The position numbers were made by a program, and so were the translations under genes. Positions 45,239-48,666 of a DNA stretch of 64,000 nt are shown piece by piece; the first letter of the stretch is position 1; every line of letters starts with the position of its first letter. This stretch comes from Terriglobia bacterium (GTDB lineage: Bacteria; Acidobacteriota; Terriglobia; Terriglobales; Acidobacteriaceae): contig JAIQGK010000005.1 in the NCBI GenBank assembly GCA_020072645.1, forward strand, positions 186,001-250,000. The letters are read 5' to 3'. The notes under the pieces are model-generated. The model was not told where the DNA came from and searched no databases. It saw only the letters and a list, made by a program, of their open reading frames with translations.

Positions 45239-45302
45239 GGTACCCATTTCGCTCTCGCCCTTAGTCGCATTCGCTCCCGCGGGCGATCGCAAAATGGGTA
45301 CC
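45239..45302. repeat. Long imperfect hairpin with GGTACCCATTT arms in a 530-base gap
   Basis: Perfect 11-bp outer arms GGTACCCATTT (45239-45249) and AAATGGGTACC (45292-45302) enclose inner arms TCGCCC and GGGCGA. It lies in the 45018-45549 gap, which otherwise holds purine-rich repeats (GGGAACAAAGAAAG twice, near 45346 and 45396) and one copy of the palindromic repeat CACAGGCAGGAGTGCCTGTG. No gene is seen in the gap. Confidence 0.5.
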
Positions 45303-45479
45303 GAAGTAAAGAAGCCGTTCATTTGGGAAGAAAGAAACTGCCGAATGGGAACAAAGAAAGAAGCGGTTTGATTGGGCGAAAAAGAAGCGGTTGATTGGGA
45401 ACAAAGAAAGACGCCTGCGGTCCACGATGTTTTTGAGGGATGGCTTCTTGTGCCCAGTAAGCATCGTGCGATTATGCTG

Positions 45480-45501
45480 CACAGGCAGGAGTGCCTGTGC
45501 C
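45480..45501. repeat. Palindromic repeat, intergenic copy
   Basis: CACAGGCAGGAGTGCCTGTG plus CC. The same word recurs inside the adjacent RNase R gene at 46204, 47083 (partial) and 47961. A piece of the second palindromic module (GCCTGCGGTCCACGAT) lies just upstream at about 45414. Confidence 0.7.
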
Positions 45502-45549
45502 GCAAAATTCAACTACTGTCCCTACAGACTTCCGAGGGTGATCTGAACT

Positions 45550-48500
45550 TCATCCTCGTTTCTTGTGACGCTTTTCGCTGCGTTTTGGCTTGTCTTCCAA
45601 CACCGCAAACTGGACTTTCTTCTGCATGTGATCAATGCGGTCAACGATGACGCGAACTTTGTCGCCGATGGAGTAGGTTTTCTTGCTGCGGGCGCCGATG
45701 ATCTGCCGGGTGTTTTCGTGGTAGCCGTAGTTGTCATCGGTGAGCGAGTTCAGCGGTACCAGGCCTTCAATGAACAGCTCCGTCAGCTCCACGAAGAAGC
45801 CGAATTTGGTGACGCTGACGATCAGGCCGTCAAAGTCTTCTCCCACACGCTGCTCCATGAACTTGAGCTTCTTCCATTCCAGCAGTTCGCGCTCAGCTTC
45901 AGCGGCGGCGCGTTCAGATGTGCTGGAGCTTTCGGCAATTTCATGCAGTTCAGGCTCTGAGATAGGGCCGGCAAGCGGAATGGAGGAGAGGCGTCGGCGG
46001 GCCGAGGAGCCTTTTTCTGCGCGCTTGGACCAGGGAGAATGAGCCTCATGAGATTGCTGGGCGCGGAAGCGGAGGGGAATGCCGCTTTCTCCTGGGGAGT
46101 GACTGGCCGATTTTATCGGGTGATCGGGTGATCGGGTGATCTGGTGATCGGACTCGTGCCCACGAGCTTTTCTTCCCTTGTGTGTCTCGTGGGATTCACC
46201 ATGCACAGGCAAGAGTGCCTGTGCCACAGAACCCTTGAGACTTTCCTGCGCAGCCGAGGGCGGCTGCGATCCACGATCCTTATTTGATGTTGTTTCATTC
46301 TCATTCCGCAGCACCCATTTCAGAATGCGATGGATGATCAGATCAGGATAGCGGCGGATGGGTGAGGTAAAGTGCGTATAAGCATTTGCGGCCAGGGCGA
46401 AGTGACCTTCATTGACCTCTGAATAGCGAGCCTGCTTGAGCGAACGCAGCATCAGGAAAGAAAGCACGCGCTCTTCCGGCTTGCCGGAGATCTTCTGGAC
46501 CAGCTTCTGGTACATGCGCGGCGTTACGTGGACTTCTTCCGGCAGTTCAATGGTCGGGGCGCGGCGGCCGGATTCGCGGAAATGGCGTTTATCACCTTTG
46601 GTCTGCACGCGCTTGATGGGTAGCGCGCCCACGCCGAGCGAATAGCCAAAGCTGGCGGCAAGGGTTTCAAACTCATAAATGCGCTTTGCGTCCGGCTTTT
46701 CATGGATGCGGTACAGGCTGGGCACACCGCGCTGCTCCAGGTGCGAAGCCACAGTCTCATTGGCGGCGAGCATAAATTCTTCAATCAGGCGATGCGCCCA
46801 GTTGCGCTCTGAAGCCGCAACGCTCTTCATGAGGCCATGCTCGTCAAATTCGATGATCGGCTCAGGCAGGTCGAAATCAATAGAACCGCGCTTGACGCGC
46901 TTGCGGTTGAGGATCTGGGCAAGTTCGTACATGAGATCAACCTTTTCAGCCAACGAGGCGTAGTGGTCACGGATCGCTTTATTTGTTTCGGCTATCCGGT
47001 GATCTGGTGATCGGGTGATCTGGTGATCGGAGGTGGATTCACGTCCTTTGTTGCCCTCATGTGATTCGTGAGAGCGACCATGCACAGGCAAGAGTGCCTC
47101 CACCCCAGCGCGTGCAGAACCGGCGCGCTCTGGGGACCCCGGTGCCTGTGCCACAGAACCCTTGAGATTCTCGTGCGCAGGCGAGGGCGCCTGCGGTCCA
47201 CGATTTTTATAAGAATCCGTGCCTGGCGCCTGCGGTCCACGATCTTTTTTACCCGCTTCAATGATGGCGTTCACGTCGGTATAGGTCATGCGCTGGGCGG
47301 AGCGGATCACGCCTTCAGCCAGTTCGTAATATGCGATCTCTCCGTTGGGCTCGATTTCCATGATGCAGCTCAGCACCAGGCGTTCAAGATCAGGACGCAG
47401 GCTGCAAATATCAGTGGAAAGTTCCAGCGGCAGCATGGGCACGGCGCGGTCAGGGAAATAAACGGACGTTCCGCGCTTGCGCGCTTCTTCATCGATGGCT
47501 GAGCCATCGTCCACGTACTGGGCCACGTCGGCAATGTGGACCTGAAGCTCGTAATTGCCGTTGTCGAGGCGGGTGACCAGCACGGCATCGTCAAAGTCGC
47601 GGGCGGTTTCTCCGTCAATGGTGACGATAGGCAGATGGCGGAAATCACGGCGCGCGGCGATTTCCTTTTGGTGGACGACCGGGTTGATCTCCTGCGCTTC
47701 TTCCAGCACCTCCGCGGGGAAGATGTGCGGGATATGGTGCTTGCGGATAATCATTTCCACGTCAACGCCGAAATCGTCTTCATAGCCGAGGATTTCTTTG
47801 ACGCGCCCGCGCGGGCTCTGCGTGGCGGAAGGCCACTGCGTTATTTCTACTTCGACGACGACGTTATCCAGGTCGTCCCAGGTTTTGCGTTGGGCTTCTT
47901 CGCCTAACACTCGATGAGGACTATGGCGGGTGGGGTGTTTGGGAGTGGGAGCTTTATCGTGCACAGGCAGGAGTGCCTGTGCCACAGAAACCTTGAGATT
48001 CTCGTGCGCAGGCGAGGGCGCCTGCTGTCCACGATCATGATGAAAACCCACAGCCGAGGGCGGCTGTGCCACACGGGTATCGCGGTCGTCTTTGGATGGC
48101 CCGCCTTCCTCGTCTTCCGGCTTGGGGTACTCCATGCCGGGCGGGATGATGATTTCCATGGCCAGCTTTTCATCGATCGGCGTGACGAAGTTACGGCCGC
48201 TGCCGTAGTGAAAGATGCCGACGACGGTTTCCTGCTCGCGTTCCATTACGCGGACGATCCTGCCTTCAGCCTTGCCGTCATGGCGGAGACGGCCCATTTC
48301 CACCAGAACCTGGTCACCATGCATGGCGTTGCCGACTTCGGGCGGAGGAATAAAGATATCGCCCTGGAGCTTGCCCTGGGCACGTGCCGGGAGCGAGCCG
48401 GGTTCGGGGATGACGAAGCCGTAGCCATCGCGATGCATACGTAACCTGCCGACGACGAGGTCTTGGTTGCTGGCGGAGGTCGGCAGGCCCCAGCGCTCTT

Positions 48501-48666
48501 TGCCAATGGCGATGAGCTTGCGCCGGCGCGTGAGGTCGCGCAAGAGCTGCTGCAGGGTGCGGCGGTCCTTGCCCTTGAGGCCCAGGTCATGGATGAGCTG
48601 TTTGAAGCCGGCCATGTGCTTAGGCTGTTTGGAGACGTAATGGAGGATCTGTTGTTCAGTCAGCAT
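45550..48666 (-). CDS. rnr: Ribonuclease R enlarged by repeat-derived insertions
   Basis: A 1038-residue 3'-5' exoribonuclease; the family is usually 700-820. Order: N-terminal helix-turn-helix (1-65), cold-shock domains (70-190), RNB catalytic domain with IVTIDGETARDFDDAVLV (about 348-364) and HFTSPIRRYPDLIIHR (about 765-780), and C-terminal S1 domain (VGEDFDGLIVSVTKFGFFVE) with a basic tail. Three low-complexity inserts at about 190-262, 474-558 and 790-905 share peptides (DRGxQAPSPAHENLK, SVAQALLPVH, SDHQITRSPDH) and correspond to palindromic DNA repeats. Reading frame and catalytic Asp residues are intact, so the enzyme is probably active. It degrades structured RNA and takes part in RNA quality control. 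Confidence 0.92.
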   Translation of the reverse strand: MLTEQQILHYVSKQPKHMAGFKQLIHDLGLKGKDRRTLQQLLRDLTRRRKLIAIGKERWGLPTSASNQDLVVGRLRMHRDGYGFVIPEPGSLPARAQGKLQGDIFIPPPEVGNAMHGDQVLVEMGRLRHDGKAEGRIVRVMEREQETVVGIFHYGSGRNFVTPIDEKLAMEIIIPPGMEYPKPEDEEGGPSKDDRDTRVAQPPSAVGFHHDRGQQAPSPAHENLKVSVAQALLPVHDKAPTPKHPTRHSPHRVLGEEAQRKTWDDLDNVVVEVEITQWPSATQSPRGRVKEILGYEDDFGVDVEMIIRKHHIPHIFPAEVLEEAQEINPVVHQKEIAARRDFRHLPIVTIDGETARDFDDAVLVTRLDNGNYELQVHIADVAQYVDDGSAIDEEARKRGTSVYFPDRAVPMLPLELSTDICSLRPDLERLVLSCIMEIEPNGEIAYYELAEGVIRSAQRMTYTDVNAIIEAGKKDRGPQAPGTDSYKNRGPQAPSPAHENLKGSVAQAPGSPERAGSARAGVEALLPVHGRSHESHEGNKGRESTSDHQITRSPDHRIAETNKAIRDHYASLAEKVDLMYELAQILNRKRVKRGSIDFDLPEPIIEFDEHGLMKSVAASERNWAHRLIEEFMLAANETVASHLEQRGVPSLYRIHEKPDAKRIYEFETLAASFGYSLGVGALPIKRVQTKGDKRHFRESGRRAPTIELPEEVHVTPRMYQKLVQKISGKPEERVLSFLMLRSLKQARYSEVNEGHFALAANAYTHFTSPIRRYPDLIIHRILKWVLRNENETTSNKDRGSQPPSAAQESLKGSVAQALLPVHGESHETHKGRKARGHESDHQITRSPDHPIKSASHSPGESGIPLRFRAQQSHEAHSPWSKRAEKGSSARRRLSSIPLAGPISEPELHEIAESSSTSERAAAEAERELLEWKKLKFMEQRVGEDFDGLIVSVTKFGFFVELTELFIEGLVPLNSLTDDNYGYHENTRQIIGARSKKTYSIGDKVRVIVDRIDHMQKKVQFAVLEDKPKRSEKRHKKRG
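45954..46299 (-). repeat. In-frame palindromic repeat insertion 3 in rnr
   Basis: Encodes DRGSQPPSAAQESLKGSVAQ, ALLPVHGESHETHKGRK and SDHQITRSPDHPI, then an unrelated low-complexity tail before the S1 domain. The DNA holds CAGCCGAGGGCGGCTG (46248-46263), CACAGGCAAGAGTGCCTGTG (46204-46223) and tandem GGTGATC words (46117-46150). Confidence 0.8.
46993..47247 (-). repeat. In-frame palindromic repeat insertion 2 in rnr
   Basis: Encodes DRGPQAPGTDSYKNRGPQAP, SPAHENLKGSVAQAPG, EALLPVHGRSHESHEGNKG and SDHQITRSPDH. The DNA holds GCAGGCGAGGGCGCCTGC near 47178, two parts of the CACAGGCA...TGCCTGTG palindrome split by ~40 bases, and tandem GGTGATC words (46998-47031). The split palindrome suggests an insertion into the repeat itself. 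Confidence 0.8.
47880..48100 (-). repeat. In-frame palindromic repeat insertion 1 in rnr
   Basis: Encodes RVAQPPSAVGFHHDRGQQAP, SPAHENLKVSVAQALLPVH and a tail ending RVLGEEAQRK. The DNA holds CACAGGCAGGAGTGCCTGTG (47961-47980), GCAGGCGAGGGCGCCTGC (about 48007-48024) and CACAGCCGAGGGCGGCTGTG (about 48050-48069). It lies in the linker before the RNB domain. Confidence 0.8.

Follow-up and report, generated by a model that had tools for sequence, protein, structure and literature searches.

In-frame REP palindromes in the RNase R gene of an acidobacterium and in other conserved genes of its genus

The gene for RNase R (rnr) of a Terriglobia bacterium contains three inserts built of short palindromes that continue the reading frame of the gene. 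The window in which we found it is a 64,000-nucleotide stretch of DNA (G000:C5:186001-250000, where G000 is the bacterium's own genome of 6.4 Mb). The palindromes are REP elements with a GTGG guide, a stem of 7–8 bp and a loop of 4 nt. Probably, they were spread by RAYT transposases, and selection then kept those copies that lie in frame, at linker positions and with mild peptides. In-frame REPs have been known since 2013 (PMC3733652). The RNase R host, the genus-wide turnover at shared sites, the frame preference and the nesting of palindromes in loops were not found in the literature that we searched.

RNase R and its three inserts

The rnr reading frame keeps all domains of the enzyme: Pfam detected RNB (4.6e-109), CSD2, OB_RNB and S1. 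The RNases R of B. subtilis and E. coli were the top fold matches in the PDB (8cdu and 5xgu). The sequence TIDGETARDFDDAV, which we take to be the aspartate-rich active-site motif of RNase R, has 12 of its 14 residues invariant in 26 RNase R sequences. The protein therefore combines the OB/CSD, RNB and S1 domains with the active-site motif, as defines an RNase R. Among the best 80 of 577 hits, the top-scoring named relatives of rnr come from Acidobacteriaceae, Acidobacteriales and Terriglobia MAGs.

The alignment to 8cdu is interrupted at query residues 177/271, 469/562 and 791/907, corresponding to chain residues 169/180, 378/382 and 581/593. The positions of these breaks place the three inserts between conserved blocks. 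An additional break (query 677/714) contains no insert palindrome. The AlphaFold model of RNase R, built with 26 sequences, has a mean pLDDT of 76 and a pTM of 0.74. Its pLDDT falls below 50 at residues 186-254, 484-546 and 795-895, that is, in the insert regions, where low confidence is equally expected for any segment without relatives, and also at residues 683-686 and 1031-1038. From the low-confidence segments and the fold matches, we predict an intact enzyme from which the inserts protrude as unfolded loops.

A first-pass annotation had described modules common to three rnr regions, in one frame and orientation, and sequence comparison bears this out. On the rnr strand, we named the modules R1 (GTGG-CACAGGCACTCYTGCCTGTG), R4 (GTGG-CACAGCCGCCCTCGGCTGTG), R2 (GTGGANC-GCAGSCGCCCTCGSCTGC) and R3. 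Upon folding, R1 gives an 8-bp stem and R2 a 7-bp stem, both with a 4-nt loop. The order of the modules is R4, R2, R1 in insert 1; in insert 2, R2 is followed by an R1 that R3 splits and by a GGTGATC array; and insert 3 has R2, R1 and the array (Table 1). For the core palindrome pattern, with up to one mismatch allowed, we counted 6 matches in the window, whereas 100 shuffles gave 0.15 on average.

The same annotation had placed every module in every insert, and this stands only in part. The exact first palindrome, CACAGGCAGGAGTGCCTGTG, occurs in insert 1 and in the further copy downstream of rnr, which had been correctly noted (45480–45499); insert 3 has CACAGGCAAGAGTGCCTGTG. The exact second palindrome, GCAGGCGAGGGCGCCTGC, is present in inserts 1 and 2, but insert 3 has GCAGCCGAGGGCGGCTGC. 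Inserts 1 and 3 encode VAQALLPV, whereas insert 2 reads VAQA-PGSPERAGSARAGVEA-LLPV because the palindrome there is split by another one. The GGTGATC words and the peptide DHQITRSPDH are found in inserts 2 and 3 but not in insert 1. A third, tagged hairpin of insert 1 had been missed (CACAGCCGAGGGCGGCTGTG, 48049–48072).

The R1-spacer-R2 stretch recurs closely (88–97% over 63–69 nt) only within rnr; two places outside the gene align over the R1/R2 palindrome pair at 75–79%. Since the close recurrence is confined to rnr, the three inserts are probably, judging by the sequence, partly copies of one R1-spacer-R2 composite.

Table 1. Features of the rnr region, in window coordinates
Feature	Position	Strand	Basis
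Extragenic R1, about 50 nt beyond the rnr stop, tag GCGG instead of GTGG	45480..45503 (G000:C5:231480-231503)	-	Genome scan
rnr, RNase R of 1038 aa with three REP-bearing inserts	45550..48666	-	Pfam domains; B. subtilis RNase R (8cdu) matched in sequence and fold
Insert 3 (RNB-S1 linker): GGTGATC array, R1, R2; limits approximate	46118..46285	-	Linker variable in relatives
R1 with GTGG, insert 3, peptide VAQALLPV	46204..46227	-	Tagged-copy scan
R2 with GTGG, insert 3, peptide RGSQPPSAA	46250..46274	-	Tagged-copy scan
Insert 2 (within RNB domain); limits approximate	46985..47255	-	+270 nt versus G004; 29 aligned relatives without insert here
GGTGATC array, insert 2	46998..47028	+	Array scan
R1 with GTGG, insert 2, split by nested R3 palindrome	47083..47154	-	Sequence comparison
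R3 palindrome at R1 loop, insert 2; 48 nt separate the R1 halves	47097..47142	-	Three more dispersed genomic copies
R2 with GTGG, insert 2, peptide RGPQAPSPA	47177..47201	-	Tagged-copy scan
Insert 1 (linker ahead of CSD2 core): R1, R2, R4; limits approximate	47955..48080	-	Shared modules; relatives' alignment
R1 with GTGG, insert 1, peptide VAQALLPV	47962..47985	-	Tagged-copy scan
R2 with GTGG, insert 1, peptide RGQQAPSPA	48008..48032	-	Tagged-copy scan
R4 with GTGG, insert 1, peptide VAQPPSAV	48049..48072	-	Identical to REP beside RAYT-type gene on C6

An rnr match was found in 60 of the 61 genomes searched (own included), and the 29 relatives with a retrieved locus were aligned. Site 2 carries no insert in any of the 29, and sites 1 and 3 vary in length among them; one locus, L029, is a partial ORF with no data at site 1. 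The rnr gene of G004 is 90% and 78% identical to that of G000 over two segments and 84% overall. It is free of insert 2 and has R2-type peptides of its own at sites 1 and 3. At the DNA level, insert 2 adds 270 nt (90 codons) relative to G004. The net gain from inserts 1 and 3 is smaller than the size of about 75–115 residues once proposed for each insert, because their linkers vary in length among the relatives. REPs were recognized by pattern in two of the eight rnr genes of the genus that we read (G000 and G004). For the rnr inserts, neither an exact target duplication nor a clean empty site was established, and the clear insert-free counterpart concerns only insert 2 (G004). G006, the nearest relative by its fragment, could not serve as a source of empty sites because its rnr contig ends at residue 134 and the remainder was not found.

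Dispersal of the REPs and their linkage to RAYT-type genes

With up to three mismatches, R1 has 51 genomic matches and its reversed control none; the R2 core has 66 matches against 13 in the control. With the tag included and up to one mismatch, we found 42 matches to GTGG-R2 and 56 to GTGG-R1/R4 in the bacterium's own genome, with no matches in either control. These 98 tagged copies are dispersed and mostly extragenic, as expected for high-copy REPs. According to the REP rule, a GT[AG]G tetranucleotide lies 0–2 nt 5' of the hairpin (PMC6006769). In R1 and R4, GTGG abuts the stem directly, which is within the rule, and in R2 a 3-nt gap (ANC) goes slightly beyond it. The distribution is patchy: of 200 genomes searched in the class, G000 among them, 29 have an exact R1/R4-type match, and these belong to 14 of the 82 genera.

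The genome contains eight Y1_Tnp genes in seven regions, two of them together on C5. GTGG hairpins flank these genes in three regions (R1 on C11 and C16, R4-type on C6), while the shuffled means are 0.02–0.16 per region. No GTGG hairpin was found beside the Y1_Tnp genes on C4 (scanned over ~250 nt on one side) and C13 (two genes) or beside the C5 pair. Since the scan of the seven regions turned up no R2 next to the RAYT genes, the transposase of R2 can only be inferred. The best NCBIfam match of the C11 and C16 proteins is NF047646 (REP_Tyr_transpos), whose cut-off of 80 bits they narrowly miss with 77.5 and 76.5. Read by eye, both proteins contain the HVH/HIH, WQ and Y-x-x-ANP motifs.

Seven inverted pairs of R1, ~25–27 nt apart, have the arrangement of REPINs (for example, C1:116104/116149, C2:271320/271365 and C14:15567/15612). 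The REPs of rnr are in direct orientation and do not form a REPIN; successive REPs in a shared orientation also occur at other loci. The loci G000:C11:17535-18128 and G000:C16:118091-118679 are REPtron-like, each with a RAYT-type gene and an inverted R1 pair on one side. A single R1 at the 3' end of these genes is read into the protein.

REPs in other conserved genes

We examined 94 of the 98 tagged copies. Thirteen lie in frame in six conserved genes: six in rnr, two each in the genes for a UbiD-type decarboxylase and FtsQ, and one each in those for UvrC, GluQ-RS and a helicase that we presume to be Lhr-type. For 77 copies, no frame has codon scores that exceed −0.05 on both sides, and three others pass this mark without family support. 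The remaining copy lies in a doubtful ORF (L050), named class I methyltransferase-like by resemblance, without an NCBIfam match, and kept separate. There, an inverted REP pair in an open frame (G000:C1:116104-116172) gives cysteine-bearing peptides. A 374-aa ORF at C1:428434 and other ORFs with low codon scores were judged spurious and excluded. Thus, the repeats are not restricted to rnr. Copies genome-wide and in five other conserved genes, together with the breaks in the RNase R alignment, support the view of the first-pass annotation that dispersed, mobile-type palindromes were inserted in frame where a conserved nuclease has linkers or loops.

The UbiD-type enzyme (best match: menaquinone biosynthesis decarboxylase) and UvrC score above their NCBIfam cut-offs, and GluQ-RS reaches 249.3 against a cut-off of 250. 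The helicase (model name: ATP-dependent helicase) and FtsQ are best-match names, since their scores are below the cut-offs. The left-side codon score of FtsQ is about zero (−0.03 and −0.02).

Among the genomes of the genus, the UbiD site holds differing kinds of REPs in G000, G006, G004, G003, G005 and G007, an R3-split REP in G001 and none by pattern in G002. At the helicase site, there are REPs in G000, G006, G004, G001 and G007, split REPs in G002 and none by pattern in G005 and G003. The inserts of G000 and G006 at this site are similar to each other and, by sequence, may have been inherited together. UvrC has REPs in G000, G002 and G007 and none by pattern in G006, G004, G003, G005 and G001. 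In GluQ-RS, they are present in G000 and G006 and absent in G004 and G001, and in FtsQ only G000 has them among six genomes. Thus, insertion sites are reused, and their contents mostly differ. The linker of the Lhr-type helicase in G007 (L285), ~150 residues long, contains seven REP units in the same orientation and frame type, one of them split by R3.

Reading-frame preference

In R1, R2 and R4, all six frames are open, so the choice of frame is not forced by stop codons. At 42 gene loci, which are not all independent and do not include the methyltransferase-like ORF, the main frame of R2 (GPQAPSPA) is used in 21 of 26 cases and that of R1/R4 (VAQALLPV) in 12 of 16. When coding was scored automatically, disregarding the insert, both sides came out above zero in 20 of 153 matches from three genomes; these rows share one frame in 14 of 14 cases for R2 and in 4 of 6 for R1. 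Counted per gene, the main frame is found in five of six genes for R2 (chance of 0.004 for any single frame) and in three of five for R1/R4 (about 0.2, calculated by hand).

Other frames are used in FtsQ and in parts of UvrC, the helicase and GluQ-RS. Mostly, this is another frame free of cysteine (in FtsQ and in parts of the helicase and of GluQ-RS); in UvrC, it is one with cysteine (TGEGACGP). Which base flanks the element decides whether the main frame of R2 itself begins with cysteine, as it does in the helicase (CGPQ). Relative to GTGG, the codon phase is 0 in R1 and 1 in R2. Counted in this way by gene, the bias is clear for R2 only. We interpret it as probable selection on the peptide, with weak support for R1 alone.

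Palindromes nested in REP loops

The R3-type hairpin has the ends CCGGGGTCCCC and GGGGTGGAGG and a variable core. In ten cases (G000, G001, G002 and G007), found by scanning loci mostly chosen for holding REPs, it separates the left arm of the stem from the loop in R1, R2 or R4; in two of the ten (L018 and L104), its ends are degenerate. Of the original 12 rows, L254 and the R2 row of L285 were left out, since each shows two REPs side by side and no nesting. The length of nested R3 is divisible by three in all five cases in genes (48, 48, 42, 42 and 42 nt) and in none of the five in loci without a supported two-sided coding frame (46, 44, 41, 43 and 40 nt; Fisher 0.008). This divisibility is expected for intact genes, and the point of interest is the repeated location. 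Other copies of R3 lie outside REPs, one of them in a GGTGATC array. Tentatively, R3 might be a hyper-parasitic mobile hairpin that targets REP loops, and R3 and the REPs together might be a selfish system in layers, producing disordered loops in proteins at sites that can be used again.

Origin of the inserts

The RAYT transposases (TnpA-REP, HUH/Y1) of this acidobacterial genus would have spread the REPs, which would land widely and survive mostly outside supported genes. A few would have entered coding sequences at surface linkers or loops. Purifying selection would retain the insertions that keep the frame, mostly in the mildest of the six frames (Pro/Ala/Gln-rich, cysteine-poor and without Arg runs). 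The R1-spacer-R2 composite was probably copied to further rnr sites, and a second palindrome would have entered the loop of one rnr R1, likewise without breaking the frame. The resulting enzyme would have an ordinary RNase R core and three disordered loops.

The frame bias might instead arise from the insertion mechanism, through a target motif in a fixed codon phase, or from gene-to-gene copying. The R1-spacer-R2 stretch is common to the rnr inserts, so copying probably multiplies one frame; successions of REPs in the same orientation at other loci and the non-significant per-gene test for R1/R4 point the same way. Nevertheless, R1 and R2 reach a mild frame from different codon phases, and the same frame is chosen across different genes and genomes with different spacers. 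We therefore consider this origin of the bias unlikely and prefer selection on the peptide. It is less likely still that the inserts were co-opted, and that the disordered Pro/Ala/Gln loops of RNase R, UvrC, the Lhr-type helicase and the UbiD-type enzyme function, for example, in partner binding or regulation. REP peptides do recur at the same few sites in several species, and Di Nocera 2013 (PMC3733652) also stresses DNA repair genes. However, sequence, length and REP type vary between sister species, other species lack the inserts, and a permissive site is sufficient to account for the recurrence.

A silent gene, a spliced-out element or an assembly artefact is very improbable. The rnr frame is open across 1038 codons, codon use is of the coding type on both sides of each insert, all RNase R domains are retained, and other genomes and genes show the same pattern. 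The open frame, the codon use and conservation suggest that the inserts are translated.

The first-pass annotation had compared the inserts with Rickettsia palindromic elements (RPEs), which are about 150 bp long and form ten families (PMC10969869). The parallel holds for the way of working: like RPEs (Ogata 2000, 2002, as cited in PMC10969869 and PMC3733652), which are palindromes in frame in many unrelated genes, some of the REPs here lie in frame in unrelated genes, and at the DNA level the rnr inserts create protein segments in frame. It does not hold for membership. As described in PMC3733652, the RPE sequences of R. conorii end in CGTC; RPE-4 and RPE-6 are those found within genes, RPE-1, which is longer, is treated apart, and repeats of the CGTC type show no association with transposase genes. 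The rnr elements have a GTGG tag, linkage to RAYT-type genes and a short unit with an 8-bp stem. On the end tag we reject the RPE family, and we give such an origin almost no credence.

Comparison with known REPs

In-frame GTAG and CGTC REPs were described in ORFs of several species, many of them in repair genes, with the argument that they fall in linkers (Di Nocera et al. 2013, PMC3733652). Like those of the GTAG type, our elements are RAYT-linked palindromes that lie in frame, are grouped and occur in repair genes, for example, those for excinuclease subunits. Most GTAG-20 elements of O. terrae read GTGG (PMC3733652). What sets our case apart from the account in that paper is RNase R with six tagged REPs and a split one, sites shared genus-wide, a frame preference and loop-nested palindromes. 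Its main text has no mention of RNase R or ribonuclease, and its sole mention of Acidobacteria concerns TIR-flanked transposases. The prior literature compared also included PMC3174227; no report of REPs in RNase R was found in the literature searched, supplements excepted.

Inverted REP doublets, RAYT association and dispersal are shared with REPINs and RAYTs (PMC3116915). As given there, 14 of 1,067 occurrences of the most abundant 16-mer overlap genes, whereas 13 of our 94 copies fall within six conserved genes. In-frame REP insertions were also described in a variable peripheral region of subclass 2.4 tnpA-REP genes (PMC6006769). In contrast to these transposase hosts, ours are mainly other conserved genes, although the C11 and C16 RAYT-type genes read into R1.

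Thus, a known but rare phenomenon, protein-coding palindromic mobile DNA with a RAYT link, is extended to another lineage. As a natural experiment, it can show which protein sites and frames tolerate a new peptide. Since sister species hold different elements at the same gene sites, insertion, turnover and possible co-option can be traced. For annotation, the VAQALLPV and GPQAPSPA peptides should be regarded as element-derived and not as domains.

Other repeats

From the 51 genomic matches listed for GGTGATC arrays, a part was sampled: 18 arrays in 15 regions outside rnr (L310–L329), none of which has a supported two-sided coding context. The assignment of the array to the REP element is thus unsupported, and the arrays in rnr look like a separate repeat that is a passenger beside the REPs. 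At L110 (G000:C3:588876), a GGTGATC array is interrupted by an R3 palindrome.

A dispersed repeat of ~147 nt with an R2-type hairpin has 12 copies at 11 loci (L053, L105, L092 with two copies, L074, L058, L089, L060, L049, L103, L098 and L080), 89–97% identical to the L053 copy (2431-2577). These loci were selected for the R2-type hairpin, so copies without it would escape. The repeat has no Rfam match up to E = 1. Finally, an inverted repeat with 22-nt arms, 86% complementary, lies 3' of rnr at 45239-45302 of the window.
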